Part shown: positions 11,271-62,158 of the stretch, piece by piece
Layout of the letters: every line of letters begins with the position of its first letter
Position numbering within the stretch: the first letter of the stretch is position 1
Source of the DNA: Paracrocinitomix mangrovi
GTDB taxonomy: Bacteria; Bacteroidota; Bacteroidia; Flavobacteriales_D; Crocinitomicaceae
Direction: 5' to 3'
Assembly: GCF_019740355.2 (NCBI RefSeq)
Contig: NZ_CP091819.1
Coordinates: 4,278,001-4,342,000, forward strand
Length of the DNA stretch: 64,000 nucleotides
Program-made: the position numbers and the translations under genes
Notes under the pieces: model-generated
Databases searched by the model: none
Told to the model about the DNA's origin: nothing
Seen by the model: only the letters and a program-made list of their open reading frames with translations

Positions 11271-12203
11271 ATGAAAGTTACAGTTGTAGGTGCAGGAGCA
11301 GTTGGAGCAAGTTGCGCAGAATATATCGCAATGAAAAACTTTGCTGCAGAAGTTGTACTATTAGATATTAAAGAAGGATACGCAGAAGGTAAAGCAATGG
11401 ACCTTATGCAAACTTCTTCATTGAATGGTTTTGATACCATGATTACGGGATCTACCAATGATTATTCAAAAACAGCTAATTCAGAAGTTGCTGTTATTAC
11501 ATCAGGTATTCCTAGAAAACCGGGAATGACTCGTGAAGAGTTAATCGGAATCAATGCAGGAATCGTAAAAGAGGTTTCTTCAAATTTGATTAAACACTCT
11601 CCAAATGTGATCATTATCGTTGTATCAAATCCTATGGATACAATGACTTATCTTGTACACAAATCAACTGGTCTTCCTAAAAACAGAATTATCGGAATGG
11701 GTGGAGCACTAGATTCAGCAAGATTTAAATATAGATTAGCTGAAGCTATTGGATGTCCAACTTCTGATGTTGACGGAATGGTAATCGGTGGACACTCTGA
11801 TGTTGGAATGGTTCCATTGATTGAAAAAGCAACAAGAAATTCTGTTAATGTATCAGAATTCCTTTCATCAGAAAGAATGCAACAAATTGTTGAAGACACT
11901 AAGGTTGGTGGAGCTACTTTGACTAAATTATTAGGAACTTCAGCTTGGTACGCACCAGGTGCTGCAGTATCTGAATTGGTTAAAGCTATTGCTTTAGATT
12001 CTCAAAAGATGTTCCCTTGTTCAGCTTTATTAGAAGGTGAGTATGGATTAAACGACTTGTCAATCGGTGTTCCATGTATTCTTGGAAAAAACGGAATTGA
12101 GAGAATCGTTGAAGTTTCTTTATCTGATGCTGAGAAAGCAAAAATGCAAGAAAGCGCAGAGGGAGTTAAGAAAACAAATGGTTTGCTTGAGGTAAACGCT
12201 TAA
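11271..12203 (+). CDS. mdh: malate dehydrogenase
   Basis: A 310-residue NAD-dependent dehydrogenase that interconverts malate and oxaloacetate in the TCA cycle. The Rossmann motif is GAGAVGASCAEY (7-18) and the coenzyme-discriminating acidic residue lies in VVLLDIKEG (Asp33). GIPRKPGMTREEL carries the substrate-binding arginines of the mobile loop, SNPMDTMTY the binding Asn, and GGHSDVGMVPL the catalytic His. This is the LDH-like, compact MDH type found in Bacteroidota. The gene stands alone, with a good terminator 23 bases after the stop. Confidence 0.96.
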   Translation: MKVTVVGAGAVGASCAEYIAMKNFAAEVVLLDIKEGYAEGKAMDLMQTSSLNGFDTMITGSTNDYSKTANSEVAVITSGIPRKPGMTREELIGINAGIVKEVSSNLIKHSPNVIIIVVSNPMDTMTYLVHKSTGLPKNRIIGMGGALDSARFKYRLAEAIGCPTSDVDGMVIGGHSDVGMVPLIEKATRNSVNVSEFLSSERMQQIVEDTKVGGATLTKLLGTSAWYAPGAAVSELVKAIALDSQKMFPCSALLEGEYGLNDLSIGVPCILGKNGIERIVEVSLSDAEKAKMQESAEGVKKTNGLLEVNA

Positions 12204-12226
12204 GTAAATTCTAAATATTGATAAAG

Positions 12227-12257
12227 CCGTCTCTAAATTATTAGGGACGGTTTTTTT
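12227..12257 (+). terminator. intrinsic terminator of mdh
   Basis: CCGTCTCTAA (12227-12236) pairs with TTAGGGACGG (12241-12250), a 10-bp stem with one G-U pair and a four-base loop, followed by seven T. It lies 23 bases after the mdh stop. Confidence 0.9.
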
Positions 12258-12341
12258 ATGGATGCATTTTGTCTAATTATCGAATAATAGGGCTTTTTTT
12301 TAATTTAAATATTAGTTTAGTTCTCAAAATCAAGCAGTTTT

Positions 12342-14138
12342 ATTAAGATTCTTTCATTCATATCAGTTCTTATTCTATTTCAATCATTTGGTCAAAATGA
12401 TCAAATAATCTTTACGCCTGAAGAACAAAAATGGATAGAAGAACATCCGATAATTCCACATGGATATGATCCTGAATGGAAACCTATAGGTTTTGCAAAT
12501 GATAAGGGAGAGTTTTCAGGGATTTCAGCTGACTACCTTCAGCTAATGGAAAAGAAGATAGGTGTAGATTTTGTTCCTTATGACGGGATTGAAAGTTGGA
12601 GTCAGTCACTAGAACTTTTACATAACCAAGAAATCTATTTTTTACCGGCACTTGCTCAAAATGAAGAAAGAAGCAAGTTTTTGGATTTTACAGAAGCTTA
12701 TTTGGCATATGATTTTGTAATTGTCACTAGAAAAGAAGGTGAATTCATAGGGCAATTAGAAGATTTGGAAGGAAAAAAAGTAGCTGCTCCTGAAAATTAT
12801 TATATCACAGGATTGTTAGAACAAGAGCAATTTAAAATGAACTTTGTGTATAAATCTGGGGTTCAAGAATGCTTGTGGGCGGTAGCAACTGAAGAAGTAG
12901 ACGCAACAGTGGCTAATCTTGGTGTAGTCAGTCATTATCTGAATTATAATGGCTTTGAAAATCTGAAAATCGCTGCACCTACTGACTATCCGAAAATTGA
13001 AGTAAAAATGGGGGTGGCAAAAGGAAATCCTGAACTCGTTAGTATTTTGCAAAAAGGAATCAATGCTATTTCTCCAAAAGAGAAAAATGAAATTGTCCAA
13101 AATTGGGTCTCAGTGCAATTTGAGCACGGAGTAGATATGGCTCGAATCTGGAGAATAGCTGGAATTTCAGCTGGGGTTATCTTGTTGATCTTTGGTAGTT
13201 TTATTTATTGGAATAGAAAACTTAAAAAAGAAGTTAGCTTAAGAAAAGAAGCAGAAGGTCAATTGAGATTGTCTTTTGACGAAATCTCCGAGCAAAAGAA
13301 AATTATTGAGCATAAGAATGAAGAGGTGTTGGATAGTATAAAGTATGCTAAGAGATTACAAGAAGCTATTTTACCTCCTACAGAGATGATTAACAATAAA
13401 TTTCCCAACAATTTTGTTTTGTATTTGCCAAAAGATATTGTGGCAGGTGATTTCTATTGGATGGAATCTGTTGAAGCAAACGAGGAACATGGAGAAATCA
13501 ATTTAATTGCAGCTGCTGATTGCACGGGACATGGTGTGCCTGGAGCAATGGTTTCAGTAGTTTGTTCCAATGCGCTTAATCAATCTGTATTGTCTCACAA
13601 CCTAATTAAGCCGGGTCAAATTTTAGACAAAACCACTGAGCTGGTTGTTGAACGATTTGAAAGAAGTATAGAGGAAGTTAAGGATGGAATGGATATTAGC
13701 TTGATTAGTGTCGAATATAAATCTGAAGGGAAGGCTGTTGTGTGTTTTTCAGGAGCACATAATAATGCATGGATTGTTACAAAGAGGTCAAGTATAGGGG
13801 TGGAATCTAATGTATTGAATCAGGGAGATTTTTATTTACATGAAATCAAAGCAAACAAACAACCTGTTGGGAAGTATGAAAACTTGAAGCCTTTTGATAC
13901 AACCGAAATTGAGTTAGAAAAAGGGGATACAGTTTATTTATATTCTGATGGATATGCAGATCAATTTGGAGGTGAACAAGGTAAAAAATTCAAGAATAAG
14001 AGTTTTAAAAACCTGATTTTAGATGTGGTGGACAAACCACTTAATGAACAGAAAAGTATTTTAGAAAAAACACATGTAGATTGGAAAGGAGCAATGGAAC
14101 AGTTAGATGATGTTTGCGTAATTGGTGTGAGAATATAA
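12342..14138 (+). CDS. periplasmic solute-binding sensor / SpoIIE-type serine phosphatase, apparent ATT start
   Basis: A 598-residue membrane signalling protein if read from 12342. The first canonical start in frame (ATG 12546) falls inside the sensor domain. Upstream of it the frame is open back to a TAG at 12318 and encodes a clear signal peptide (KILSFISVLILFQSFGQ) and the start of a bacterial extracellular solute-binding domain (family 3). No ATG, GTG or TTG occurs in that stretch; ATT at 12342 fits the signal peptide best. Domains: signal 1-18, solute-binding about 20-265, membrane segment about 271-292, coiled coil to 340, SpoIIE PP2C-like phosphatase 350-598 with KDIVAGDFYW, AADCTGHGVPGAMVS, KDGMDISL and LYSDGYADQF. 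It should dephosphorylate a Ser/Thr-phosphorylated partner when its ligand state changes; neither is known. Its tail is part of a 110-bp repeat. Confidence 0.85.
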   Translation: MKILSFISVLILFQSFGQNDQIIFTPEEQKWIEEHPIIPHGYDPEWKPIGFANDKGEFSGISADYLQLMEKKIGVDFVPYDGIESWSQSLELLHNQEIYFLPALAQNEERSKFLDFTEAYLAYDFVIVTRKEGEFIGQLEDLEGKKVAAPENYYITGLLEQEQFKMNFVYKSGVQECLWAVATEEVDATVANLGVVSHYLNYNGFENLKIAAPTDYPKIEVKMGVAKGNPELVSILQKGINAISPKEKNEIVQNWVSVQFEHGVDMARIWRIAGISAGVILLIFGSFIYWNRKLKKEVSLRKEAEGQLRLSFDEISEQKKIIEHKNEEVLDSIKYAKRLQEAILPPTEMINNKFPNNFVLYLPKDIVAGDFYWMESVEANEEHGEINLIAAADCTGHGVPGAMVSVVCSNALNQSVLSHNLIKPGQILDKTTELVVERFERSIEEVKDGMDISLISVEYKSEGKAVVCFSGAHNNAWIVTKRSSIGVESNVLNQGDFYLHEIKANKQPVGKYENLKPFDTTEIELEKGDTVYLYSDGYADQFGGEQGKKFKNKSFKNLILDVVDKPLNEQKSILEKTHVDWKGAMEQLDDVCVIGVRI

Positions 14139-14221
14139 TTCGAACATCAATTTAAGCAGTTTATCCTGACCGCGTGTCGCAAAAGCTTTAGCGGTGGCGC
14201 AGCCTGTCGAAGGGTAATTGG
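14112..14221 (+). repeat. 110-bp perfect repeat, copy 1 (gene tail plus REP-like sequence)
   Basis: Identical base for base to 23590-23699. It covers the last codons and stop of the SpoIIE gene (VCVIGVRI) and about 80 bases beyond. The 3' part is richer in GC than its surroundings and contains a near-palindrome CGCAAAAGCTTTAGCG (14178-14193) flanked by ACCGC and GCGGT, ending CAGCCTGTCGAAGGG. A 17-base direct repeat, GTAATTGGTGTGAGAAT, occurs at 14118-14134 and again at 14214-14230. The second copy continues CTAA, i.e. a second in-frame-looking VIGVRI-stop tail, which probably is the gene's original end. Confidence 0.95.
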
Positions 14222-14230
14222 TGTGAGAAT

Positions 14231-16129
14231 CTAAAGACATTCAGAAATCATATTCTTTAGAATCCCAATATTTATAGGTTTAGAAATATAATTACTAGCA
14301 CCTTCATTTAACGCTTTCTGTTCTTCTTCCCTCATTGCATATCCCGTTTGAATAATAATCGGTAGATCAGGTTTGAAAGTTTTAATTTGCTTCATGGCTT
14401 CATAACCGTCAATCCCTTTCATATTTACATCCATTAATACAACGTCATAATCATTACTTTTGCATTCTTCAATTGCCGCTTCACCTGAATGAACTTTTTT
14501 AGGTTTCATTCCATTTCTGCTCAATACTTCATATAAATACAAGCAATTAATATGATTGTCATCCACTATTAAAATCCTTTTATCGGTAAGCTCTTTGTCT
14601 AAGTCTGCTTTTTTAGGATCCAATACAATTCGGTTTATAACTCGTAGAGGAATACGGAAAGTGAAATTGGTTCCTTTTCCAACTTCTGAGGACACATTAA
14701 TTCTTCCTCCCATCATTTCTACCAAAGACTTTGAAATAGATAATCCTAAACCTGTGCCGATTCCTCCTTTAGGTTTAACTTGAGCAAAACGCTTAAATAT
14801 TCTTTCTAAATCTTGTTCACTTATACCAATACCACTATCATTCACATAAAATTGTATGGTATTCTGATCCTGATTAGTTCTATATCCAAAATTTATAGTA
14901 CCTACATCTGTAAATTTAACGGCATTAGAAAGTAGATTGAGTAATACTTGTTGAATTCGCAATGGATCTGATTCAATAAAAAACTCTTTCTGTTCATTTG
15001 CAAATTCAAGTTCAATATCTATTTTTTTGTCTCCAACACTTTGTAGGATTATTAGTTTGATGTTGTTTAAAAGCTGATGGAGATCAAAAACTTGAACTTG
15101 AATACTTAATTGATTGGACTCAATTTTGGAGATGTCAATAATATCATTGATAATGTTCAACAAATTATCTCCACTAGATTTAATTATCTCTAAATACTGC
15201 TGACGTGATTTGTTATCCAAAGAGCTATCTTTCAATAAGAGATCAGCAAATCCTAAAATACCATTTAAAGGCGTTCTGATTTCGTGACTAACATTGGCTA
15301 GAAATGCTGTTTTTAATTGATTGCTTTCTTCCGCTTTTTTTCTTGCTTCCTCTAGTGCAATACCCATTTCCATCATTTGAGTAACATCTTCTGTAACACC
15401 AATACAACGGACCGCATTTCCTTCTTTATTGTATTCAAATTCGGCTTTCTCTTTTAGCCATTTCAATTTTTCATTGACTACAATTCTGTAAACTATATCG
15501 TAAGGTTCTCCTTCTAGCGCTTTTTCCCAGCTATCAATTACCCTGTCTTTGTCTTCAGGATGAATAAACTCTTCAATTGTGCCATCTACGATTTTGACAC
15601 TTTCATCCAATTCAAAAATTTTATACGTCTGTTTGGTCCAGCTTATTTCTTTTGTGACCAAGTCCTCATCCCAGGTTCCAATGTTTCCAATTTCCTGAGC
15701 TTTTTCTAAATAATACTGATTTACTTTTAACGATTCTTCAATTCTTTTTTGCTCAGTAATATCTTGTGATACTCCTACTGCTCTTACTGCAATTCCATCC
15801 TCATTAAACTCAAATTCACATTTTTCCTTCACCCATTTCACCTTGCCATCAATTAGAAGTCTGTGTTCAATGTTGTAATTGGATTTTCTTTCTAGGGCTT
15901 CTGTCCATTTTTCATTGACAAAATCTTTGTCATCCGGATGTACTTTTTCTAGAAAGAGTTCATAAGTTAGTTCAGTATCAGGATCTACATTAAATATGAT
16001 GTAGTTTTGCTTGGTCCAATACAACTGATTGTTGAGCAGATCTAAATCCCACGTTCCTATTTTTCCTATTTCTTGCGCTTTTTCAAGATAATAGGCTGTA
16101 TTAATAGAGTGTTTTTCGGCTAAAGACAT
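14231..16129 (-). CDS. hybrid sensor histidine kinase (PAS-PAS-HisKA-HATPase-REC)
   Basis: A 632-residue soluble kinase with no membrane segment. Two PAS/PAC modules that resemble one another occupy about 14-130 and 138-255 (each has EKAQEIGxIGTWD and ends GVSQDITEQ or GVTEDVTQM). The HisKA domain has the phospho-acceptor His282 in NVSHEIRTPLNG; the ATPase domain has the N box LLSNAVKFTD, G1 DSGIG, and G2 GTGLGLSI. A receiver domain covers 516-632 with Asp567 in VLMDVNMKG. It therefore passes phosphate internally, but no separate response regulator or phosphotransfer protein is adjacent. Its stop codon abuts the direct repeat that ends at 14230 and converges with the SpoIIE gene. Confidence 0.93.
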   Translation of the reverse strand: MSLAEKHSINTAYYLEKAQEIGKIGTWDLDLLNNQLYWTKQNYIIFNVDPDTELTYELFLEKVHPDDKDFVNEKWTEALERKSNYNIEHRLLIDGKVKWVKEKCEFEFNEDGIAVRAVGVSQDITEQKRIEESLKVNQYYLEKAQEIGNIGTWDEDLVTKEISWTKQTYKIFELDESVKIVDGTIEEFIHPEDKDRVIDSWEKALEGEPYDIVYRIVVNEKLKWLKEKAEFEYNKEGNAVRCIGVTEDVTQMMEMGIALEEARKKAEESNQLKTAFLANVSHEIRTPLNGILGFADLLLKDSSLDNKSRQQYLEIIKSSGDNLLNIINDIIDISKIESNQLSIQVQVFDLHQLLNNIKLIILQSVGDKKIDIELEFANEQKEFFIESDPLRIQQVLLNLLSNAVKFTDVGTINFGYRTNQDQNTIQFYVNDSGIGISEQDLERIFKRFAQVKPKGGIGTGLGLSISKSLVEMMGGRINVSSEVGKGTNFTFRIPLRVINRIVLDPKKADLDKELTDKRILIVDDNHINCLYLYEVLSRNGMKPKKVHSGEAAIEECKSNDYDVVLMDVNMKGIDGYEAMKQIKTFKPDLPIIIQTGYAMREEEQKALNEGASNYISKPINIGILKNMISECL

Positions 16130-16290
16130 TTATAGAATAGTAGCGTTTGATTTTCCTATGTTTAAATATAGAACATTCAGCTTGAAAAATATTAATAATT
16201 AATTCATTATTTGTTTGATTTTCAAAAAGTAATTGGCTGTTTGTTAAGCGATTTTTCTATAAAAACTTCTTTTTGTTTTAATGAAAAGCT

Positions 16291-16298
16291 TATTTTTG
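16291..16298 (+). promoter_or_regulatory. -7 type promoter box before the PhoX-like gene
   Basis: TATTTTTG matches the Bacteroidota -7 element TAnnTTTG and lies 16 bases before the ATG at 16315. A TTG at 16273-16275 is only 15 bases upstream, shorter than the usual 19-base spacing, so the -33 element is uncertain. Confidence 0.45.
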
Positions 16299-16314
16299 GC
16301 CTCCCCAAATTGAA

Positions 16315-17817
16315 ATGAAAAAATTAGCTTTTTTAATACCTGCAATGCTTATGCTGTCTTGTGGTGGTAAAAACCAGCAAGACGAAAGTCAAATTACGGA
16401 AGATACTCTTGTTAAAGAGGAAATAGTGGATACTACACCGCTTTTTAACTCAATAGCTTCTAATTTCAATTCTACAGATCTTCTTTTGCCTGAGGGGTTT
16501 ACATACACTGTGCTTTTTAGAGAGAAACATGATTTGGTGACAAGAGCTGATGGTCAAAAATTTCCCGCAAAAGGAAAACATGACCTTTCTGTTTTTATTC
16601 CCTCTGAGGATGATCCTGAAAATAAAGGGATTTTATATATCTCTCATGAAACCAATGAACCACATGCAGATTTAGGTGATGGCGGTGGAGCCACAGTAAT
16701 GGATATTGAAAAAATAGATGGTCATTGGAAAATAACATCTGAGTTTCATCACATAGATTTTGGAAGTGTTGGGTTTACAGATAGAAATTGCGGTGGAAGC
16801 TTAGGTCCAAACGGAAATGTTTTTTCTTGTGAAGAAACTTGGGGTTACGACAACGAGTATTTCACCAAAAGAGGATTAAAAGAATATGATTTTGGAAATG
16901 GAAGGCCAATGTGGCAAAACATGGGGTATGTTGTAGAGGTAGATCCAAGAGAAAGAAAAGTGGTGAAAAGACATCTAACCATGGGTAAATTAGTACATGA
17001 AGATGTTGCTATTACTGCTGATGGAAAAACATGTTATATAACAGATGACTACGATCCGGGAGTGTTTATGAAACTAGAGATGGAGCAGGCAAATGATTTT
17101 GATCACGGACAACTTTATGCCTATAAACAATCTGAAGATGGGCAAAGTGGAGAATGGTTGAAGTTGCCAATGGATACAACTTCATTGGCTAATTGTAGAA
17201 AGATTGCGGTGGAAATGGGAGCAACAATGATTGTAAGACATGAATGGATAGAAGAAATTAACGGTAAATATTATATCTCAGAAACAGGTAAAGATTACAT
17301 GGACTGGGACGCTTCAATTAGTAGAGGAGGAACCATACCTTATTGGGTGAAAAATTCTCTTACTGATGAAAATGGCCAAATGGATGATCCTTTTGGAAGA
17401 ATTTTAGAGTTTGATCCGTCGAATAATAAGATGGTTTCATACCTTGAAGGAGGGATGTTTAGCGATTCTTTAGGATGTTTCTCCAACCCGGACTGTAATA
17501 CTTCCGTTTCTTTTGGTAACAAGACCTATTTGGTGATCAGTGAAGATATCAATGGTTACGACAGAGGTAGAGTAGATGCGTTAGCCGAAGAAGATAGACA
17601 GTATTATAATGAAGTCTATTTTTTGGATATGAGCATTGAAAATCCTACTGTTGAAGACTTACTGAGATTTGCAATTGCTCCAAAAGGTGCTGAGACAACA
17701 GGTGTAATATTTTTACCTGACGGATCCATGATCATGAATGTTCAACATCCATCACCGAGAAATCCGGCTCCTTTTAATGTGTCTTGTACAGTTTTAATTG
17801 AAGGTTTTAAAAAGTAA
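16315..17817 (+). CDS. PhoX-like (DUF839) lipoprotein
   Basis: A 500-residue lipoprotein. The signal peptide ends in the lipobox MLSC, Cys16. The mature part matches the DUF839/PhoX beta-propeller family: PEGFTYTVLF near the start, a long acidic stretch DLSVFIPSEDDPEN, then LYISHETNEP, GGSLGPNGNVFSCEETWG, YVVEVDPRERKV, KLVHEDVAITADGKTCYITD and the C-terminal GVIFLPDGSMIMNVQHPSPRN. In PhoX proper this family binds calcium and iron and acts as an alkaline phosphatase; many Bacteroidota relatives are of unknown activity. I cannot confirm the Cys iron ligand from sequence alone. The next gene starts directly after the stop. Confidence 0.8.
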   Translation: MKKLAFLIPAMLMLSCGGKNQQDESQITEDTLVKEEIVDTTPLFNSIASNFNSTDLLLPEGFTYTVLFREKHDLVTRADGQKFPAKGKHDLSVFIPSEDDPENKGILYISHETNEPHADLGDGGGATVMDIEKIDGHWKITSEFHHIDFGSVGFTDRNCGGSLGPNGNVFSCEETWGYDNEYFTKRGLKEYDFGNGRPMWQNMGYVVEVDPRERKVVKRHLTMGKLVHEDVAITADGKTCYITDDYDPGVFMKLEMEQANDFDHGQLYAYKQSEDGQSGEWLKLPMDTTSLANCRKIAVEMGATMIVRHEWIEEINGKYYISETGKDYMDWDASISRGGTIPYWVKNSLTDENGQMDDPFGRILEFDPSNNKMVSYLEGGMFSDSLGCFSNPDCNTSVSFGNKTYLVISEDINGYDRGRVDALAEEDRQYYNEVYFLDMSIENPTVEDLLRFAIAPKGAETTGVIFLPDGSMIMNVQHPSPRNPAPFNVSCTVLIEGFKK

Positions 17818-18213
17818 ATGAAGAAGGTTTTATTTGGGATATTGACAATGATGGTTTTTGCAGTTACAAGCTGTGAATTAGGAGGGAATAAACCTTGTCT
17901 TGAAGAAAAGGCCACTGCAACTGTAATTGGAGAGTTTCCTGATAGTGTTAAGGTAGGTGATAATCAAAAAGTTGGCGTTAAATTTTTGGCTGAAAATTCT
18001 TGTGGAGAATTCAAGCGTTTTGATATTACTCAATCTGACAATTCTTTTGAAGTGAAATTGATTACAGAGTACGAAGGATGTAACTGTAATTTAGTATTTA
18101 CTGAAAGAGAGGTGGAATTTGAAATTGATATCGACTTTCCAGGAGAATACCAGTTTAAATTCTGGCAATCTGACGGTGATTACGATACCCACCTGGTCAG
18201 AATCTACGAATAG
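17818..18213 (+). CDS. small hypothetical lipoprotein
   Basis: 131 residues with a lipoprotein signal peptide (MKKVLFGILTMMVFAVTSC, Cys19). The rest is an acidic, beta-strand-rich domain with four further Cys residues (CLEEKAT, ENSCGEF, EGCNCNL), suggesting a compact immunoglobulin-like domain. No family recognised. Its ATG follows the PhoX-like stop codon without a gap, so the two are co-translated and perhaps co-localised at the membrane. About 80 bases of non-coding sequence follow, with a promoter box for the next gene. Confidence 0.75.
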   Translation: MKKVLFGILTMMVFAVTSCELGGNKPCLEEKATATVIGEFPDSVKVGDNQKVGVKFLAENSCGEFKRFDITQSDNSFEVKLITEYEGCNCNLVFTEREVEFEIDIDFPGEYQFKFWQSDGDYDTHLVRIYE

Positions 18214-18276
18214 ATTTCCCATTTTTCATGTGAATAAGTAATTAATGTCCTTTCAATTTAAAGGATGGTTCGGCTG

Positions 18277-18284
18277 TATCTTTG
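18277..18284 (+). promoter_or_regulatory. -7 promoter box before the ABC ATPase gene
   Basis: TATCTTTG is a full match to TAnnTTTG and ends ten bases before the ATG at 18295, so the transcript would have a leader of about five bases. The -33 position holds only a T-rich sequence. Confidence 0.5.
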
Positions 18285-18294
18285 AATTTGAGAT

Positions 18295-19248
18295 ATGTCA
18301 TCAATCCTTTCTATAAAAAACCTTTCTGTAGGTTATGATAAAAACAAGGTTGTAAAAAAATGCAACTTTGAACTTCAAGCAGGTGAAATTGCCGTTATTC
18401 TCGGTGCATCCGGGGATGGTAAAACAACTTTACTGAAAGCAATTGCCGGTTTTTTACCACATCAAGAAGGAGAAGTAACTTTTAAAGGAGAAAAGATCAA
18501 AGATTCAACTCAGAAGCTGATTCCGGGAAATGAAGAAATTCGTTTAGTTAATCAAGATTTTGAACTGGATGTCTACCATACAGTAGAAGAGAATATTAAA
18601 AACCGCTTGTTGAGGTTTGATGGTGATTATCAAGAGCAGAGGGTGAAGAGTATGTTGCGAATTACCAAGTTAACAAGGTTCAGAAACTATAAAGCACTTG
18701 AGATTTCGGGAGGTCAACAGCAGAGATTAGCTATTGCAAGAGCCTTGGCAGATGAACCTGAATTATTGTTACTGGATGAACCTTTTAATCAATTAGACTT
18801 TCAAACAAAGAGTAAGATCTCAAATCATATCAGAAAATACCTTAAGAAAAACAATATTGCTGCTCTAATGGTTACTCATAATGGAATTGAGGCAATGGAA
18901 TGGGCAGATAAAATCATTTATATGGAAAAAGGAAAGATTAAACGTATAGATGAGCCTCAGGCTTTTTTTGAACAGCCTAGTAGCAAAAGAGAGGCTAGCT
19001 TTTTTGGTGAATTAAATAGGCTAAAAATAGGAGAGGAAGAATTGTATTTCAGACCCAGCTTTTTCTCGTCTGAAAAAACTAAATCCTTTTCTAAAGCCCT
19101 TCAAGTTGACTTTGTTCAAAAGCAAAATTTAGGTTGGTACTCAATTTTTACTTTCGTTTTTAAAGGACAAGAATTTAACCTCTTTTCAACTGAAGATATT
19201 TCCGGATTAAGTAAAATTTTTATTAAGCCGATTAACTTTATTGATTAA
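18295..19248 (+). CDS. ABC transporter ATP-binding protein, PotA/FbpC-like
   Basis: A 317-residue ABC ATPase. Walker A is GASGDGKTT (about 36-44), the Q-loop is in VNQDFELDV, the signature is EISGGQQQRLAIARAL, Walker B is LLLLDEPFNQLD and the switch is VTHNG. After the ATPase (about 230 residues) a C-terminal extension (230-317) is the size of the TOBE-like regulatory domain of anion, iron and polyamine importers. No permease or binding protein gene is next to it, so either its partners are elsewhere or it acts as a stand-alone ATPase. Substrate unknown. Confidence 0.85.
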   Translation: MSSILSIKNLSVGYDKNKVVKKCNFELQAGEIAVILGASGDGKTTLLKAIAGFLPHQEGEVTFKGEKIKDSTQKLIPGNEEIRLVNQDFELDVYHTVEENIKNRLLRFDGDYQEQRVKSMLRITKLTRFRNYKALEISGGQQQRLAIARALADEPELLLLDEPFNQLDFQTKSKISNHIRKYLKKNNIAALMVTHNGIEAMEWADKIIYMEKGKIKRIDEPQAFFEQPSSKREASFFGELNRLKIGEEELYFRPSFFSSEKTKSFSKALQVDFVQKQNLGWYSIFTFVFKGQEFNLFSTEDISGLSKIFIKPINFID

Positions 19249-19266
19249 AAATTCGTCTTTTTTATT

Positions 19267-19300
19267 TATATTTGACTAATTTATTGTCAATTAGTATCAA
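19267..19300 (+). promoter_or_regulatory. promoter box with overlapping inverted repeat before the XRE-S24 gene
   Basis: TATATTTG (19267-19274) matches the -7 element. The inverted repeat TTGACTAATT (19272-19281) / AATTAGTATCAA (19289-19300), with a two-base insertion in the right arm, starts inside this box and ends two bases before the ATG at 19303. Such a placement is what a self-repressing regulator would use. The spacing to the nearest TTG (19241) is longer than usual. Confidence 0.45.
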
Positions 19301-19302
19301 TT

Positions 19303-20109
19303 ATGATAGGTGAAAATCTGAAATTATTAAGAAAAAGAAGAAAACTTTCTCAAGAAGAAATTGCTATTGAGCTTGGTTTAACGCGTTCATCATATAGCGG
19401 ATATGAAAATGGAGTTGCTGAGCCCAATCTTTCAACACTCATCAAATTCAGTTCATTTTATAATATCTCATTGGATAAGTTGATTAAACGAGATCTAGGA
19501 AAGGTTTCTGAAAATGAGTGGGATAAAATTGATAAAGGTATTGAAGCTGATGTGGAAGGAAAGAATCTTCGTGTCTTAGCAATGACTGTTGACAATGATA
19601 ATAATGACAATATTGAATTGGTTCCTGAAAAAGCTCGTGCAGGATATACTTCAGGTTTTTCAGATCCTGACTTTATTTCTGTCCTGCCTACTTTTCAATT
19701 ACCTTTCTTAAAAAAGGATAGAAAATATAGAACTTTTCCAATCAAAGGTGATTCCATGCCTCCTGTTAGTGATGGCTCTTTTGTAGTAGCTGAGTATGTT
19801 GAGAATTGGAGTAACATCAAAGATGGATATCCGTATATAGTAGTAACATTGGATGACGGAATCGTATTTAAAAATGTTTATAAGCGTTTATCAGACAGCC
19901 AAAGTTTCCAATTGTGCAGTACAAATCCTGCGTATGAACCTTACGAAGTGCATGCAAATGAGATAGTTGAGATTTGGAAATTCGTTAATTACATCTCCTC
20001 AGACCTTCCAACTTCAGAATTTAAAGAAAGTGAGCTCACTAAAGCTATTTTGGAACTTCAAAAAGATGTAAAACATCTCAAAAACGTGTATATACCTAAA
20101 AAGGGATAA
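19303..20109 (+). CDS. XRE-family regulator with LexA/S24-type C-terminal domain
   Basis: A 268-residue repressor-like protein. Residues 1-65 form an XRE helix-turn-helix (LRKRRKLSQEEIAIELGLTR and a following recognition helix SSYSGYENG). The C-terminal half is an S24 peptidase-like domain: an AG-type cleavage region (EKARAGYTSG, about 107-116), the nucleophile motif GDSMPPVSDG (Ser in GDSM, about 151) and a Lys candidate in IVFKNVYKR. All parts of a self-cleaving repressor are therefore present, as in LexA and phage CI, although many Bacteroidota homologues are constitutively intact. No SOS genes adjoin it. The signal it reads is unknown. Confidence 0.88.
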   Translation: MIGENLKLLRKRRKLSQEEIAIELGLTRSSYSGYENGVAEPNLSTLIKFSSFYNISLDKLIKRDLGKVSENEWDKIDKGIEADVEGKNLRVLAMTVDNDNNDNIELVPEKARAGYTSGFSDPDFISVLPTFQLPFLKKDRKYRTFPIKGDSMPPVSDGSFVVAEYVENWSNIKDGYPYIVVTLDDGIVFKNVYKRLSDSQSFQLCSTNPAYEPYEVHANEIVEIWKFVNYISSDLPTSEFKESELTKAILELQKDVKHLKNVYIPKKG

Positions 20110-20172
20110 TTAACGTTAATAATACACTTCCCAGAGTAAGATTTAGTTGAAAACCAATATCTTTACCCTGTT

Positions 20173-23100
20173 ATGATATTGCGTTTTTCACTCACCTTGA
20201 TATTGTTATTGAGCTTTTTCGGTTTTGCTCAACAGCATAGGTATGTGAATTTCAAAAATATTGATACTGAAGTTTTTGGTACAAAAGAATTTACCTATCA
20301 AACCTGGCTAGAAGATGGTAGCTTTTTAGGTAAAACTGAATTCGGTCTATTACATCATAATGGTTATTCAGGAAAAACATTTATTCCTTCAAAAGATGGA
20401 GGAAACACAATCCTTTCACAAGACATAGTTTCTATCTCAAACATCAGAGAAGATGAAATTTGGATTGGTTATTTAGATACCTGTGCCGTTACTAAAATCA
20501 ACACACATTCCTGGCAATTTGAACACTTTTATATTGATGAATTAAATCTTGATACTGTGCAAGTAGGTGCTGTTGTGAGATTTAAAGTGGACAAAAATGA
20601 TCAAATGTGGTTATGCACCTGGGGAAGAGGACTTATTAAATTCAATGAAGGTAAAGGTGATAATAAGATGTACATTTTTAATAGCGATATTGAAAATGGA
20701 GAGCAGCCAAAAGAAGAGGCCGCCTGGTATATTAAGGATTTAGCCATTTTAGAAGACAATCAATTCTTTGTTACTTTTTTTAAAGGAGGCGGGGGTTCTT
20801 ATTCTTATCCAGGATTTTTTAATCCGGAAACAGAAGAATTCAGTAGGATTGATATCAAAAGTTTTATAAAAGACGAACCAAAGGATTTTCAAAACAAAAT
20901 TGAAATAGCCATTAAAATTATCCATTGGGTTCATAGAGATAATAATGGAAAGTATTGGTTAGGATCTTATAGTGGTGTGCTATTATTGGATTTGGAGAAT
21001 GAAAAGATTGAAAGAGTATATAAAGCTGATGCAGATAGAAAATTGCAAAATCAAGTCAACCCTTTAAATTATGTTGTTTCTGGGAATCAACTTTGGATTT
21101 CAACATTGAATCAAGGTGTGATGGTAGTTAATATGGATAATAAGAAAGTGAATTTCTATTATTCTGATCCTGTTAACTCCAATAGTATTAAAGAAAATAA
21201 AATACTCTTTATAAGTAAGGACCCTGAAGGTAATGTCTGGATTTTAAATGGTGCCCATAACGCCAGTGTCTATGTTCCTTTTATCCACAACTTTAGAGTA
21301 ATGTATTGGATCAATATGGATCTAAAATACACTAATAGTTCTGCACAAAATATTCCTGTGAATCAGCTATATGTTAGAGATTCTGACGAGATCTTTATTT
21401 CAAGTGGAGCAGGCTTGATGATATATGATTATGAAGATATGGCCATGAGGGATTTTATCGATAATGATGAAATGTCCTATGTGCATGACGTTCAAAGAGG
21501 AGTTGAAAATTTTAAACTGGTTGAAGATACTATTTTCATGTGTGCCGAATTACGTCCCACTTTTTATGATTTTAAAAACAGAAGAAAGATTCAGTATTTT
21601 GATCAAAAAGGTCGATTTATTGTCGCTTTTAGACATGATGAAAGTGTAAACAGGTATTTAGGGATTTTTAGTTCTAGAATGGGGGATAGAATAGTAGAGT
21701 TTTTTCCTGAAACTAAAACCAAAAAAGTTGTAATGCAATTCCCGGATGATTTCAAAATCAACGAAATATTCTCCTTCAAGACCAATCAAAATAATTGGAT
21801 CTTTTCTGAGGCTAATGGTCGTTTTGTGATAGTGAATCCACAAGACAGTTCATATTTATTATTTAGTCCCTCAAGAGCCGAATCATATTTTCCGGATAGT
21901 ACAGTGACATCTGTTTTGATCAATGATAATGATATGATGTATGTAGGAACAAAACAAGGTTTCTACACTTTTAATGAGTTGACGCATGAATATGAAGATA
22001 TCTCATCAAGTGTCGGATTAAAAGAAGGGGAGGGAGTGAGTTCCATGGTGAAAGATAACCTTGGTAGAGTTTGGATAGCCCTTCAAACTGAACTTGTATG
22101 TTGGGATCCGGTGAGTGGAGGCTATTATAGATATGGAAAAAATTTAGGAGTAGAAGTTTCTAATTTTTTACCTGCAATTGGTCAAAAAGATGAGCAGGGT
22201 AATTTGTACTTCGCCTCTATGTATGGAGTTTTAATGTTTAACCCTAAGGATGTTATTGTTCCGCATAAGGAGTTGTTGATTGAATTAGATGAAGTAAAAA
22301 TCAATAGCGAATCGTTGAATAATAATGAGATTAGGTCATTAATGGAAGGGGAAAAACAGTTTCATTGGGATCAAAATTACATGGAGTTTAAATTTTACAC
22401 CAATCAAGTTTTTCAGCTTTCTCCACATCAATTTGATTACATGCTGGAGGGATTAAATATTGATTGGATATCAAATGGAGCAAATAACGTAATCAGGTTT
22501 GACAATCTACAATATGGAAAGTATAAGCTGCTGGTAAAAGTGAAAAATGCTTATAACGTTGAGAGTAAAATTTTGGAGATCCCTTTTGTAGTTAAAAAGC
22601 CATTTTGGTTTGAATGGTGGTTTTATGTTTTAGCTATTCTAGCATTTTCAGGAGTTGTTTATTTACTCGTTAAAGGTAGAATTAACGCCCTTAGAAAACG
22701 AAGTGAATTACTTGAGAAAACTGTTGAGGAAAGAACTGCAGAGGTAGTAGAACAAAAGAAAGAGGCAGAACGCCAAAAAGCAGATGCAGAGCATCAAAAG
22801 GAGATCGTAGAAGAAAAGCAAAAAGAAATTACAGATAGTATTACTTATGCTAAAAGAATTCAGGATGCCATTATGCCTTCTGATGAACAATTTAAAACCA
22901 GCTTGCCAAATTCATTTGTTATGTATCGTCCAAAAGATATTGTGGCGGGTGATTTTTATTGGTTGGTTCCTTTAAATGAAAACAATGTTGTTTTTGCTGC
23001 TGCAGATTGTACTGGGCACGGTGTTCCTGGAGCAATGGTATCTGTAGTTTGTAATAATGCGTTGAATAGATCTGTTAGAGAGTTTAAAATCACGGATCCG

Positions 23101-23616
23101 GGTAAAATATTGGATAGTACCAGAGAATTGGTAATTGATCAATTTGAGCAGACAGCTACAGAAATACATAATAATCATCCTCAAGAAGAATCAGAAAGTT
23201 CAGAAACCATTAAAGATGGAATGGATATCTCCATTTGTAAATGGGATAAGATGTCGAATAAACTTTTGTGGGCCGGTGCAAACAATCCTATCTGGTTAAT
23301 TAGAGATAATGAATTACAAGAAATAAAGGGAAATAAGCAACCCGTAGGAAAATTTGATCCTTCTGAACCGTTTACCACTCATGAACTGCAGTTGCAGGAA
23401 GGTGATAGGTTTTATTTGTTTTCTGATGGTTATGCTGATCAATTTGGTGGAGATAAAGGAAAGAAATTTAAATCTTCTTCTTTGAAAAAATTATTGATGG
23501 ATATTCATCAGTTACCAATGAATGAGCAGCTAATTAAGCTTGAAAAAGAATTTGATCTTTGGAAAGGTGATTATGAGCAATTAGATGACGTTTGCGTAAT
23601 TGGTGTGAGAATATAA
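20173..23616 (+). CDS. two-component-regulator-propeller / Y_Y_Y sensor with SpoIIE-type phosphatase
   Basis: A 1147-residue membrane sensor. Signal peptide 1-20 (ends FGFAQ); a long periplasmic region of beta-propeller repeats (for instance MWLCTWGRGLIKFNEG, VWIALQTELVCWDP) to about 700; a Y_Y_Y-like domain to about 805 (FDYMLEGLNIDWI); one membrane segment about 812-834; a charged coiled coil (KKEAERQKADAEHQKEIVEE); and a SpoIIE phosphatase domain 905-1147 with KDIVAGDFYW (Asp near 927), AADCTGHGVPGAMVS, KDGMDISI and LFSDGYADQFGG. The propeller/Y_Y_Y front is familiar from hybrid two-component sensors that detect glycans, but here it is joined to a Ser/Thr phosphatase instead of a kinase. 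Phosphatase domain closely related to the gene at 12342. The 3' end carries repeat copy 2. Confidence 0.93.
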   Translation: MILRFSLTLILLLSFFGFAQQHRYVNFKNIDTEVFGTKEFTYQTWLEDGSFLGKTEFGLLHHNGYSGKTFIPSKDGGNTILSQDIVSISNIREDEIWIGYLDTCAVTKINTHSWQFEHFYIDELNLDTVQVGAVVRFKVDKNDQMWLCTWGRGLIKFNEGKGDNKMYIFNSDIENGEQPKEEAAWYIKDLAILEDNQFFVTFFKGGGGSYSYPGFFNPETEEFSRIDIKSFIKDEPKDFQNKIEIAIKIIHWVHRDNNGKYWLGSYSGVLLLDLENEKIERVYKADADRKLQNQVNPLNYVVSGNQLWISTLNQGVMVVNMDNKKVNFYYSDPVNSNSIKENKILFISKDPEGNVWILNGAHNASVYVPFIHNFRVMYWINMDLKYTNSSAQNIPVNQLYVRDSDEIFISSGAGLMIYDYEDMAMRDFIDNDEMSYVHDVQRGVENFKLVEDTIFMCAELRPTFYDFKNRRKIQYFDQKGRFIVAFRHDESVNRYLGIFSSRMGDRIVEFFPETKTKKVVMQFPDDFKINEIFSFKTNQNNWIFSEANGRFVIVNPQDSSYLLFSPSRAESYFPDSTVTSVLINDNDMMYVGTKQGFYTFNELTHEYEDISSSVGLKEGEGVSSMVKDNLGRVWIALQTELVCWDPVSGGYYRYGKNLGVEVSNFLPAIGQKDEQGNLYFASMYGVLMFNPKDVIVPHKELLIELDEVKINSESLNNNEIRSLMEGEKQFHWDQNYMEFKFYTNQVFQLSPHQFDYMLEGLNIDWISNGANNVIRFDNLQYGKYKLLVKVKNAYNVESKILEIPFVVKKPFWFEWWFYVLAILAFSGVVYLLVKGRINALRKRSELLEKTVEERTAEVVEQKKEAERQKADAEHQKEIVEEKQKEITDSITYAKRIQDAIMPSDEQFKTSLPNSFVMYRPKDIVAGDFYWLVPLNENNVVFAAADCTGHGVPGAMVSVVCNNALNRSVREFKITDPGKILDSTRELVIDQFEQTATEIHNNHPQEESESSETIKDGMDISICKWDKMSNKLLWAGANNPIWLIRDNELQEIKGNKQPVGKFDPSEPFTTHELQLQEGDRFYLFSDGYADQFGGDKGKKFKSSSLKKLLMDIHQLPMNEQLIKLEKEFDLWKGDYEQLDDVCVIGVRI

Positions 23617-23699
23617 TTCGAACATCAATTTAAGCAGTTTATCCTGACCGCGTGTCGCAAAAGCTTTAGCGGTGGCGCAGCCTGTCGAAGGGTAATTGG
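23590..23699 (+). repeat. 110-bp perfect repeat, copy 2
   Basis: Identical to 14112-14221 in all 110 positions. Covers the last codons and stop (23614-23616) of the sensor phosphatase gene plus the same REP-like tail. It is followed by GTAATTGGAGTACGAGTATAA (split as 23692-23712), which reads VIGVRV-stop and looks like the gene's displaced original end. The identical part of the two genes starts abruptly at a synonymous difference (GAT versus GAC at codon end 14111/23589). Confidence 0.95.
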
Positions 23700-23726
23700 A
23701 GTACGAGTATAATCTATAAAGCAATC

Positions 23727-23754
23727 AAAAAAAAGCAGGATGATTTCACCCTGC
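23727..23754 (-). terminator. intrinsic terminator of the choice-of-anchor-B gene
   Basis: On the minus strand GCAGGGTGA and TCATCCTGC form a nine-pair stem with a two-base loop (one G-U pair), followed by eight T (complement of 23727-23734). It lies 25 bases past the stop at 23780. Confidence 0.85.
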
Positions 23755-23779
23755 CTTCTCCTATAATTTTTTAATCAAC

Positions 23780-26131
23780 TTATTTAATTTGCTGCTTTTG
23801 AGTAAAGATTGGATTTCCAAGCTGATCATATACAACAATCACATACATTCCTGTTTGAACATTTGAAACATCTAAGCTATTTTGAACTGTTTCTTCTTTT
23901 ACCACTCGTCCACTCATATCTAATAATTTAACTGTCCCTTTTTCAATACCTGAAATATTGATGCTTTCAGATGCCGGGTTAGGGAAGATTTTAATGTCTT
24001 GAGTAAATTCAGCAATTCCTGCACCGCTTAATTCTGTGATGTAAAAATCATCTACTCCGGCCTTCATTACGTGACCTGGTGAAAAGTCTGTTGCTAAGAA
24101 AGTTATTTGCATTAAATCTGTTACTGCCATATAATCAGTCACCTTAATGCTCATGTTTGTCCAATTACTTACAACAGCATTGTTCAATCCAAGAGATGCT
24201 ACTTGAATCACACCTTGTCCATTTGATATGTAAATGGCTAATGAATCATTTGCACCACCACTACCAAATCCATTAAAGAACCAGTAGTCAAAGTTGATTT
24301 CAGGATTCATATATCCGCTCAAATCCATAATTGGAGATTTTAATTCAACAGATCCTCCGTCAACATCATCTCCACCAACTGTTCCTGAACCGTTTCCAGT
24401 TAAATAGGCAAAACCTGAACAATCATCAATTACATCTGAAAAAGGATTGGCTACTTCACCACTTGCCTGTGCTCCAACCGGAACTTCTCTCACCCAATGG
24501 CCTGCTGTAGCGCTTCCAAATGTGGTCCATCCAAAGTCAAACGTAAAATCATCTTGAATTCCTGTACCAACTTGAAGTTCATGTGAATTGTTTGCAATTG
24601 TCAATGAAACTCCTGCATCACAATCATTTGTTCTTAACCACTTACCTGCAGTAATGTTGTAGTTGTCTTCGTAAAACAAATCAAAACTCACTTCACCGTT
24701 TGCATCTGTAATTCCTTCAAAGTTTTGTAAAGTATGTTCAACCAATACGCTTGCTCCTGCAACCGGATCAGAAGTTTGATCATCAACAACAGTAATTGTT
24801 GCCGTAAATAAAGGAATTTGCTCTAAAGCTACATTTTCATTCAATATCGTTCCGCTTACAAAATCAATATCAAGCGTATCTGCATAAAATCCACTGGCTG
24901 AATATCTCACTTGATACATTCCGGTATTAGTGGTTCCAATACTGTAATCTCCTAAAACATCTGTATTGTCTGTAGTTGCAGTTGTCAAAATTTCAATTAA
25001 TGCATTGTTGATTGGTTGTCCTGTTCCTGCATTAGTAACGTTTCCTTGCAAATAGCAACTTGGAGTAGGGTTAAATCCTAATACATAAAGTCCTTCTTCA
25101 ATATCAGAAGCAATAATGTTTCCTGAAGCAAAGAATGGATATACTCCCCAGCATCCGTTAAAAGTTCCGCCACTATAGTTTGGTGAAGTATCATAAAATC
25201 CAACTTCTACCATGTTATTTGGATCACTAATATCATGAATAACAACGCCATCTGTATAATATGAGGTTACTAAATAGTTGTTCAGAACGTGCGAATTATG
25301 CGGAATTATATTGTTCCCGGGTGAAGATTGAATATTATCTAAAAATATTGGATTCGCTGGGTTTGAGATATCGTATGAATCAATAAAACCATTTGAAACT
25401 TCATCTGTGGTGAACAATGTTTGTCCATCATCAGATGGCCAGCAGTTATGTGTAAAGTTATTTGATGTAGCTAGTGTTCCTATTATGTCTGTTACGCCAA
25501 CATTTGCTTTATCAGTTAGATCAACAATAGAGAAGAAGCCATCATTTACGTGAGAAAAATATCCTGTATCATTTCTTACAAATCCATCATGAACATACCA
25601 TTGCTCAAATGAACCTACTTCTATAGGGTTCATAGGGTCTGTAGCGACATCTAAAATAATTACACCTCCATTATCTCTATCTGCTCCAAAAATGTAAACA
25701 TAACCATCTGCTTGATAAAGGTTGTGAGCTGATGACCATTGATTTCCCATTGGTCCGTTATAATGAGTAGTGGGTAAAGTTGTGCTAGACGGTAGCGGAG
25801 ATAAGTCAATAATTAAAAGACCCTCACTAGCTTCAGTTGTAACGTAAGCATAGTCTCCATAAACTTTGATATCTCTCCAAATAGAGTTCATACCCGGAAT
25901 CCAGGCAATTTCAACAAGGTTTGATGGGTCTGTAACGTCAACAATTGAGGTGCCGTCCATAGTTCCAACCAGGGCGTATTCATTGTTTAATTCATCCGTA
26001 TATCCCCAAATGTCATTTAAATCAGTACTATGCATTGTAGCAATATCCATGTATCCTAGGGAATCCATGTTTATTTGGGAAAATGAATTGAAAGTAAAGG
26101 CCGTTAAAGCCAGGAGTAGTAAATTTTTCAT
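23780..26131 (-). CDS. choice-of-anchor B family secreted protein with T9SS tail
   Basis: A 783-residue exported protein when started at the ATG at 26131, which gives a clean signal peptide (MKNLLLLALTAFTFNSFSQ). An open frame extends 51 bases upstream but adds a charged, non-signal stretch. Residues 20 to ~370 are LVIVD-type propeller repeats of the choice-of-anchor B family (DVTDPSNLVEIAWIPG, LLIIDLSPLP, VIILDVATDPMNPIEVG, IHDISDPNNMVEVGFYD). Two carboxypeptidase-regulatory-like Ig domains follow (PTPSCYLQGNVTNAGTGQPI; TVVDDQTSDPVAGASV), then a jelly-roll-like region (LNFDYWFFNGFG-like) and a T9SS type A sorting domain (IKIFPNPASESINI ... GMYVIVVYD). Likely cell-surface or released; function unknown. 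Confidence 0.88.
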   Translation of the reverse strand: MKNLLLLALTAFTFNSFSQINMDSLGYMDIATMHSTDLNDIWGYTDELNNEYALVGTMDGTSIVDVTDPSNLVEIAWIPGMNSIWRDIKVYGDYAYVTTEASEGLLIIDLSPLPSSTTLPTTHYNGPMGNQWSSAHNLYQADGYVYIFGADRDNGGVIILDVATDPMNPIEVGSFEQWYVHDGFVRNDTGYFSHVNDGFFSIVDLTDKANVGVTDIIGTLATSNNFTHNCWPSDDGQTLFTTDEVSNGFIDSYDISNPANPIFLDNIQSSPGNNIIPHNSHVLNNYLVTSYYTDGVVIHDISDPNNMVEVGFYDTSPNYSGGTFNGCWGVYPFFASGNIIASDIEEGLYVLGFNPTPSCYLQGNVTNAGTGQPINNALIEILTTATTDNTDVLGDYSIGTTNTGMYQVRYSASGFYADTLDIDFVSGTILNENVALEQIPLFTATITVVDDQTSDPVAGASVLVEHTLQNFEGITDANGEVSFDLFYEDNYNITAGKWLRTNDCDAGVSLTIANNSHELQVGTGIQDDFTFDFGWTTFGSATAGHWVREVPVGAQASGEVANPFSDVIDDCSGFAYLTGNGSGTVGGDDVDGGSVELKSPIMDLSGYMNPEINFDYWFFNGFGSGGANDSLAIYISNGQGVIQVASLGLNNAVVSNWTNMSIKVTDYMAVTDLMQITFLATDFSPGHVMKAGVDDFYITELSGAGIAEFTQDIKIFPNPASESINISGIEKGTVKLLDMSGRVVKEETVQNSLDVSNVQTGMYVIVVYDQLGNPIFTQKQQIK

Positions 26132-28601: not shown

Positions 28602-29246
28602 TTATTCCTCTTCTTTAGCTGCTTCCTCTTCAGCTGGAGCTTCCTCAGCAGCAGGTGCCTCTTCAGTAGCCTCAGCAGCAGGTGCCTCTTCAGTAGCCTC
28701 AGCAGCCGGAGCTTCTTCAGTTGCTTCTGCAACCGGAGCCTCTTCAGTAGCTTCTCCTTCTTCAGCAGCAGGTGCTTCTTCAACAGCCGGAGCTTCTTTA
28801 GCAGCAATAGCAGCAGCTTTCGCAGCGTTTTGCTCAGCTTCAGCTTTCAATCTCTCAGCTTTTTCTGTTTCTTTTGCTTTTGCAATAGAATCAGCTTTAC
28901 CTTCAATCTTAGCATCTTTATCTTTCATCCAAGCTTCAAACTTTTTAGAAGCGTCAGCATCAGATATAGCACCTTTTTGTACTCCTTTGTCTAAGTGATT
29001 TTTTAACAAAACACCTTTGTACGACAAAATTGCTCTAGCAGTATCAGTAGGTTGTGCACCAACTTTTACCCAGTGTAAAGCTCTATCAAAGTCCAAGTCA
29101 ATAGTAGCAGGATCTGTATTTGGATTGTAAGTTCCGATTTTTTCAATGAAACGACCGTCTCTTTTTGCTCTTTCATCAGCAATTACAATGTGATAAAATG
29201 CTGCTCTTTTCTTTCCGTGTCTTTGTAATCTAATTTTTGTTGCCAT
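28602..29246 (-). CDS. rpsP: 30S ribosomal protein S16 with long acidic C-terminal extension
   Basis: The first ~80 residues are ordinary S16 ([50 protein letters not shown]). The protein then continues to 214 residues, more than double the length of Escherichia coli S16 (82). The extension has a charged helical part ([32 protein letters not shown]) and a repetitive tail with the nine-residue unit ATEEAPAAE in about four copies, encoded by 27-bp tandem repeats at roughly 28650-28757. Extended S16 proteins are common in Bacteroidota but the tail length varies. First gene of the rpsP-rimM-trmN6 operon. Confidence 0.95.
28640..28757 (-). repeat. 27-bp tandem repeats encoding the S16 tail
   Basis: About four in-frame units encode ATEEAPAAE (one unit has Val for Ala). 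The two units at 28650-28703 are nearly identical, while those at 28704-28757 have diverged at third positions, which suggests continuing slippage-type expansion. Confidence 0.8.
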
Positions 29247-61552: not shown

Positions 61553-61658
61553 AATTCAAATTTTTAAGTTTACAAATTGCGACCCTAAATTAACTAATAT
61601 ATTGGAATAACAAAGGATAATTGGCAATAAGTTTATAAGATTAGATTGTTAAAAGAAA

Positions 61659-61688
61659 AAGCCGTTAATGAATGAACATCAACGGCTT
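61659..61688 (-). terminator. terminator of the second lipoprotein gene
   Basis: AAGCCGTTGATG and CATTAACGGCTT (complement of 61659-61688) form a 12-pair stem with one G-U pair, followed by a T-rich run (TTTCTTTT) on the minus strand. Confidence 0.85.
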
Positions 61689-61708
61689 ATAAAAAAAAAT
61701 AGTTTTTT

Positions 61709-62134: not shown

Positions 62135-62158
62135 TATTTATAAGTTTTAATTCGGCGG

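Follow-up and report, generated by a model that had tools for sequence, protein, structure and literature searches.

Two SpoIIE-phosphatase genes in a 64,000-nucleotide stretch of the Paracrocinitomix mangrovi genome (contig NZ_CP091819.1, positions 4,278,001 to 4,342,000; hereafter the window) end in the same 96-bp unit, which gives each gene its last codons and stop and leaves a second, displaced version of the gene tail downstream. A search of the whole genome (G000; 4,365,762 bases in one contig) identifies ten copies of this unit, each of which, read in frame, lies at the 3' end of a SpoIIE-phosphatase gene. The reading preferred here, held tentatively and somewhat short of even confidence, is that such units are hairpin cassettes, perhaps founded by a palindromic Y1-type insertion, that are copied between paralogues via short tail homology.

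The initial annotation, made from the window alone, had reported 110 identical bases at two SpoIIE loci. The genome search returns this identity as exact, with 14112-14221 and 23590-23699 equal in 110/110 bases (100%). Both host genes carry PF07228 (E 2.5e-17 and 4.5e-19). Eight of the ten genomic copies are long, with 92-100% identity, and two are short, lacking an inner 32 bp. Each copy provides the last codons and stop of its host gene (..DD[VI]CVIGVRI-stop), and after each comes a second tail that has a stop codon of its own, placed ~22 bases further downstream at 3523404 than in the other copies. Apart from one match to the nested palindrome, the search otherwise hits only unit-less SpoIIE tails and short pieces (14-24 bases) with E values of 1.4 or above. 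Both relic tails of the window, GTAATTGGTGTGAGAATCTAA and GTAATTGGAGTACGAGTATAA, are present as first described, as is the overlap at the first locus between the relic stop (14232-14234) and the stop of the convergent minus-strand kinase gene (14231-16129). An assembly artefact is ruled out, since the ten copies stand in different surroundings on a single contig and other assemblies have analogous units at the orthologous loci. Chance identity is ruled out by the eight long copies at 92-100% and the two short ones in different flanks of that contig. The anatomy of the cassette, comprising unit, copies, relics and empty sites, is solid.

The inner 32-bp stretch is a repeat in its own right, nested within the unit. 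It had been described as interrupting a CTTCGACAGGCTCAGGATAA core, and this core is indeed uninterrupted in the two short copies. Sequences related to the 32-bp stretch are found in genomes of the family, at several places read as outside SpoIIE genes (e.g. G002 C167, G068 and G065). Elsewhere in G000, a 78% match to the nested palindrome lies at 567335. This site (G000:C1:567335; L014:1501 onward) is a repeated palindromic stretch with the motifs GTGGATAGTATCCAC and GAAGCTCTCCTTCGC and a distant likeness to the nested repeat.

The two tails differ in their diversity. Replacement tails (T1) have a mean pairwise identity of 0.96, displaced tails (T2) of 0.73, and the other G000 SpoIIE tails of 0.63 (n=31). 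As the displaced tails are diverse while the replacement tails are near-uniform, the former look like old endings of already diverged genes. The borders of the shared tract are sharp, falling abruptly inside the tail at positions that differ by unit (the letters A-F are labels of this analysis; the window unit is A). Upstream of the border, identity among the ten unit A genes is near the background of 26 unit-less genes; it rises just 6-12 bases past the DD codons, and from +18 onward it is 1.00. Relative to the DD codons, the tract starts at ~+6 to +12 nt in unit A (10 genes), near 0 in E (5 genes) and at -6 in D (6 genes). Plain inheritance with gene duplication is rejected on account of this abrupt border, which largely contradicts it.

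In most units an inverted copy of the tail follows the stop codon, placing the stop at or near the tip of a first hairpin (hairpin 1). Examples of this pairing are ATTGGAATCGA with TCGATTCCAAT in G003 (L106), ATGGGTGTTA with TAACACCCAT at G000 257014 and, among the G000 copies, GTAATTGG with CAATT and GTAATAGG with CTATT. Because MAFFT placed the inverted arms in two registers, the arms of 27 units picked as non-redundant were scored against their own tail and against the tails of other units. The arm tends to match its own local tail: the mean score is 10.4 with the own tail versus 7.0 with the others, the own tail is strictly best in 11/27, and scores of at least 10 are reached in 16/27 units versus 10/136 unit-less SpoIIE genes (U test, p 1.3e-6). 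Folding z-scores below -2 are found for 14/27 units versus 11/135 unit-less genes (medians -2.04 and -0.17; p 4.8e-6), and a hairpin loop lies at the stop codon in 22/27 versus 53/135 (p 8e-5). The second hairpin was judged by eye from the structures printed for the 27 units.

The same plan, executed in unlike sequences, recurs in seven genomes of four genera: a tail with its stop; usually an inverted tail copy; a second hairpin; and an older tail. SpoIIE 3' ends were selected by a DD..stop motif, so that SpoIIE genes with other endings fall outside the counts, and were taken from G000 (53 tails), three genomes of the same genus (39, 39 and 50) and a sample of six further genera (94). One of the 275 tails was dropped for having too little downstream sequence. 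By score or motif, a tail repeat is present within 250 bases downstream in 55/274 SpoIIE genes of these ten genomes, versus 7/271 in the stretch 400-650 bases downstream. The cases are distributed as 13/53 in G000, 14/38 in G001, 5/39 in G002, 7/50 in G003, 4/17 in G065, 5/26 in G067, 6/27 in G070, 1/14 in G064 and 0/5 in both G011 and G132; the single G064 case looks like chance. Hand-made unit lists (15/53, 17/39, 5/39 and 8/50) include a few units without a definable relic, and the mechanical counts are preferred. Direct tail repeats scoring at least 15 occur in 21/181 SpoIIE genes of the four genomes of the genus and in 2/184 other open reading frames, one of these two inside a unit; this control rate rules out a general property of gene ends. 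The seven genomes with at least four tail-repeat cases have 35-57 SpoIIE matches each, and in the three with 7-22 matches a tail repeat is found in 1/24 sampled tails.

Units of several unlike sequences are spread across these genomes. They stand in tandem at, for example, G000 10237, G002 C226, G001 C75 and C62, G067 C20 and G070 C45, and different units are mixed within single arrays at G001 C44:15166, C58:18052 and C124:21172. The initial annotation had proposed insertion or copying of a unit into paralogues at the homologous site, giving new last codons and a stop and leaving the old tail behind, and had looked to further copies at SpoIIE tails for support. The ten copies, each with a tail on both sides, and their relics support that core. 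What it underestimated was the scale, which extends to several unrelated units, four genera and mixed arrays, and it missed the inverted tail copy.

Gene 1 of the window has a full-length 65% orthologue in G003 (L106), and the G003 orthologue of gene 2 lies beside a conserved downstream gene (L135), 7.5 kb from that of gene 1. In G002, likely counterparts of genes 1 and 2 have their ends at positions 178 and 7146 on contig C25, with gene 1 seemingly split between C275 and C25. All four counterparts have REP-like units and local tails (VIGIEI; VIGFKI or VIGFEI), and in the G002 counterpart of gene 2 (L024) a related insert is nested at the matching position. Occupation of the two window loci is probably old, whereas the present G000 sequence is a uniform version common to ten loci. 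The expectation that relatives might end exactly at the relic tails of the window was not borne out, the G002 and G003 orthologues having units of their own. A possible G001 orthologue of gene 2 is without a unit; its downstream gene is just 45% identical over 74 aa. At other loci, with synteny defined by one-way matches of the downstream gene at 60 bits or more, empty sites are found: the site of the G000 663694 unit is empty in G001, G002 and G003; that of the 10237 unit is empty in G003; that of the 257014 unit is empty in G001 and occupied in G002 and G003; and the sites of five G001 units (C38, C42, C7:9990, C2:16092 and C109) are empty in G000.

The second hairpin of unit A resembles repetitive extragenic palindromic (REP) elements, which are known together with REP-associated tyrosine transposases (RAYTs, or TnpA-REP). 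The likeness noted initially holds for the hairpin core only. The unit is a short palindrome, as REP elements are. PMC3733652 and PMC6006769 describe a GTAG/GGAG or CGTC tag at one end of REP elements; no such tag is seen in alignment A1 (16 sequences, read by eye), where the foot is GCAGTTTA or similar. Nor are many dispersed extragenic copies found with the two core spellings searched, the ten units all being at SpoIIE tails. The two spellings have four exact copies in G000, three within SpoIIE units and one elsewhere at 3798111. The latter, at G000:C1:3798111-3798125, is a TGAGCNNAGTCGAAG core away from the listed SpoIIE tails. The palindrome beside the RAYT-like gene at 138085 is a different one, CGCGCGAT..ATCGCGTG; the flanks of the other two G000 RAYT-like genes were compared by self-BLAST only.

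Beyond this genome, the CTGAGC..GTCGAA core of hairpin 2 occurs, among the matches listed for named genomes, in many phyla. A general property of the REP core was considered and rejected: at least 80 loci were examined (85 sites, 84 usable), and repeats across the core were mostly at control level. Four of the 14 best sites read among the matches listed lie beside tRNA-Pro. In Aequorivita, an uncultured Croceitalea and a Dokdonia MAG (metagenome-assembled genome; L293, L245 and L292), the core lies ~70 bases upstream of tRNA-Pro(GGG); in Flavobacteriaceae NBU2977 (L304) it lies ~370 bases from the annotated tRNA-Pro, with a further copy of the tRNA end between. At all four sites the tRNA 5' end is repeated on the far side with an inverted piece between, the repeat in L293 being 57 bases long. 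This layout in four Flavobacteriaceae-type genomes (gene end, inverted piece, core, gene end) is similar to that of the units. An Oscillatoriales cyanobacterium (L256; REAP01000200.1) has five REP-like cores in an array with a spacing of 99-116 bases.

Y1 genes are present in 4/5 genomes examined and in 81/120 family genomes, and two of them resemble a founder event. In G000, a Y1/RAYT-like gene (L232:1202-2021, ~137701-138520) sits between two 60-bp copies (92%) of the 3' end of a neighbouring gene. In G025 (L471:1030-2104), an IS200-like Y1 gene sits between two 121-bp copies (96%) of the last ~37 codons of the host gene, stop included. These arrangements are taken as hints to how a founder cassette may arise. 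The flanking palindromes of the G000 gene at ~137701-138520 (CGCGCGAT..ATCGCG) are unlike the tail units, and G022 (L475) has a rearranged relative of the G025 case. Also in G000, two 684-bp copies (97%) of a RAYT-like unit occur in L231:1720-3713 (G000:C1 ~1581200-1583200), one beginning 7 bases past the stop codon of a gene and the other ending 22 bases from one.

Under the preferred reading, a cassette comprises: the last SpoIIE codons and stop; usually an inverted copy of those codons; and a second hairpin, REP-like in unit A. An arriving cassette would join inside the conserved tail, the recipient would then read the tail and stop of the cassette with its protein complete, and its own tail would be displaced downstream as the relic. 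The process may involve two steps. A palindromic element, plausibly moved by a REP/IS200-type Y1 (HUH) transposase, would land at a gene 3' end and yield a tail-hairpin-tail arrangement. A replication fork stalled at the hairpins would then switch template between paralogues, of which some 35 to 55 have similar tails, through ~8-30 nt of tail homology and copy the cassette in. Fold-back (quasipalindrome) template switching may create or mend the inverted arm; this would account for the tendency of the arm to match the local tail. Copying through tail homology is favoured over a fixed-site enzyme by the restriction to SpoIIE tails, by borders that differ by unit and by the presence of units in SpoIIE-rich genomes.

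Several observations weigh against this reading. Its basis is anatomy, from which we infer the transfer event itself, and the joins of unit A within ~14 nt would be equally expected from a site-specific enzyme. Identity upstream of the border modestly exceeds background at -42 to -25 (0.54-0.63 versus 0.40-0.56 for A; also for D and E) and again at -84 to -67, leaving room for longer tracts or closer kinship. The arm scores 6 or less in 5/27 units (two of family B at 5 and 6; G003 C2:23918 at 5; G002 C214 at 5; G003 C16:113937 at 6), in 16/27 the tail of another unit scores equal or better, and the stop-codon loop is frequent in unit-less genes too. With respect to founding, G002 has units yet no Y1 match. 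Gene-end duplication around Y1 genes is rare among the loci covered: 15/33 Y1 loci have some flanking direct repeat, and four of the six repeat-flanked loci read do not involve host gene ends. The flank scan used a low-complexity filter and missed the known 60-bp case, and so undercounts.

Single-strand transposition of the IS200/IS605-REP kind stays in play on account of the short exact joins and two hairpins, and is judged rather unlikely. Hairpins 1 and 2 would form the left and right ends, respectively; a Y1 HUH enzyme would excise the unit and insert it 3' of a short SpoIIE-tail motif, and the tail of the recipient would become the relic without target duplication. The fixed orientation of units relative to the gene, the lack of terminal inverted repeats seen in the unit, the frequency of Y1 genes and their position between duplicated gene ends are consistent with this. 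An enzyme with a short target should, however, leave copies at many sites, and all ten are at SpoIIE tails; the tract borders differ between units, the Y1 gene at 138085 has a palindrome unlike that of the unit at its flanks, and G002 lacks a Y1 match. An integron-like system, in which a tyrosine recombinase acts on folded recombination sites, would explain the array logic, the hairpin sites and a tail resembling an attachment site, but the units are gene-free and have no border common to all, which makes it distinctly improbable.

The hairpins at stop codons might instead be functional 3' RNA elements under selection, with a role in mRNA stability, in termination or in ribosome release, and would then have spread through ordinary gene conversion since they are useful. 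The stop codon is at a hairpin loop in most units, structure is stronger in units than in unit-less SpoIIE genes, and REP elements are said in PMC6006769 to raise mRNA stability. Against this, 219/274 SpoIIE genes have no tail repeat, orthologues without a unit exist, a scan of window positions 12000-25000 gives no match to a known RNA family in Rfam, and such a function needs neither relic tails nor tandem arrays; it is improbable. Least credible is that the unit was inherited through SpoIIE gene duplication and then kept by selection. Presence at a locus can be old, both window loci being occupied in the G002 and G003 orthologues, but the long copies are 92-100% identical while the gene bodies are near background identity, the relic tails differ, orthologous sites at other loci are empty, and the abrupt border largely contradicts it.

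Table 1. Positions of the two unit copies, their parts and the adjoining genes within the window.
Feature	Position	Strand	Basis
SpoIIE phosphatase gene 1 (solute-binding domain + SpoIIE, 530 aa); unit holds its final codons and stop	12546..14138	+	ORF, domain search
Unit copy 1, 96 bp, between two GTAATTGG boxes	14118..14213	+	sequence, genome search
Replacement tail T1 (VIGVRI, stop), 5' arm of hairpin 1	14118..14138	+	sequence, folding
Inverted tail copy T' (ACATCAATT), 3' arm of hairpin 1	14144..14152	+	alignment
5' half of REP-like hairpin 2 (TTTATCCTGA)	14160..14169	+	alignment
Nested palindromic 32-bp repeat, absent from two short G000 copies	14170..14201	+	genome search
3' half of hairpin 2 (GCCTGTCGAAGGGTAA), continuing into relic tail	14202..14217	+	alignment
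Displaced (relic) tail T2, VIGVRI + stop, GTAATTGGTGTGAGAATCTAA	14214..14234	+	sequence
Convergent hybrid histidine kinase; stop overlaps relic stop (14232-14234)	14231..16129	-	ORF, domain search
SpoIIE phosphatase gene 2, 1147 aa, Reg_prop/Y_Y_Y + SpoIIE	20173..23616	+	ORF, domain search
Unit copy 2, 96 bp	23596..23691	+	sequence, genome search
Replacement tail T1 (VIGVRI, stop), copy 2	23596..23616	+	sequence
Inverted tail copy T', copy 2	23622..23630	+	alignment
5' half of hairpin 2, copy 2	23638..23647	+	sequence
Nested 32-bp repeat, copy 2	23648..23679	+	sequence
3' half of hairpin 2, copy 2, continuing into relic tail	23680..23695	+	sequence
Displaced tail T2, VIGVRV + stop, GTAATTGGAGTACGAGTATAA	23692..23712	+	sequence

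The phage and plasmid collections, the only ones searched for a mobile-element carrier, gave no match. Elsewhere in the window, imperfect tandem repeats at 28616-28831 encode an Ala/Glu-rich C-terminal extension of an open reading frame that we take to be an S16-like ribosomal protein, and two diverged direct repeats (77-84%) lie 582 bases apart at 61335-62152.

The units share features with several known systems. Like REP and REPIN elements, which associate with RAYTs, they are short, palindromic and non-coding, and hairpin 2 of unit A has the REP-like core. They differ in carrying the last codons and stop of the host gene with an inverted copy, in the confinement of all ten units to one paralogous family with just four exact copies of two core spellings in G000, and in a resident RAYT-like gene that is not flanked by the palindrome of the unit. 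PATE-like derivatives of IS200/IS605 likewise lack terminal inverted repeats and a short fixed target duplication, and their hairpin towards each end may have a counterpart in the two hairpins of the unit. Such miniature elements insert 3' of a short motif genome-wide, whereas the sites of the unit share a long coding tail rather than a tetranucleotide, all ten are at SpoIIE tails, and the insert restores the gene end. A further parallel is offered by large, integrase-encoding integrative elements that rebuild the 3' end of the gene they target. They too provide a replacement gene end and displace the original, but the units, at ~57-150 bp, are gene-free, and 96 bp has no room for an integrase gene. 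Template-switch mutation at quasipalindromes renders the arms of inverted repeats similar, a behaviour to which the match of the arm with the local tail also points; PMC7202029 and PMC8604942 present it as mutation between existing inverted repeats, not as a spreading cassette. REP ends that supply stop codons to open reading frames, as described in PMC3733652, are related to gene-tail cassettes but different from them. Titles and the beginnings of abstracts in a literature search contain no description of gene-tail cassettes.

Possible rather than probable is a broader reading, in which the units are a new class of selfish DNA: paralogue-tail cassettes without an enzyme of their own, whose hairpins would induce template switching, whose copy of the gene end would make them harmless and whose habitat would be a large gene family with almost identical tails. 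On the same footing, unrelated cassettes may have arisen repeatedly in one bacterial family with numerous SpoIIE genes, rewriting the C-termini of their hosts. The units are interspersed elements that settle in coding genes yet leave them intact, since they bring the gene's own end with them; the window unit is found only in one paralogous family. How short palindromic repeats originate and move is an open question for the REP type, and the relics, arrays and empty sites of the units preserve a natural record of it. For the phosphatases themselves, C-terminal residues can stem from overwriting by other genes instead of inheritance, and gene trees can be misled.

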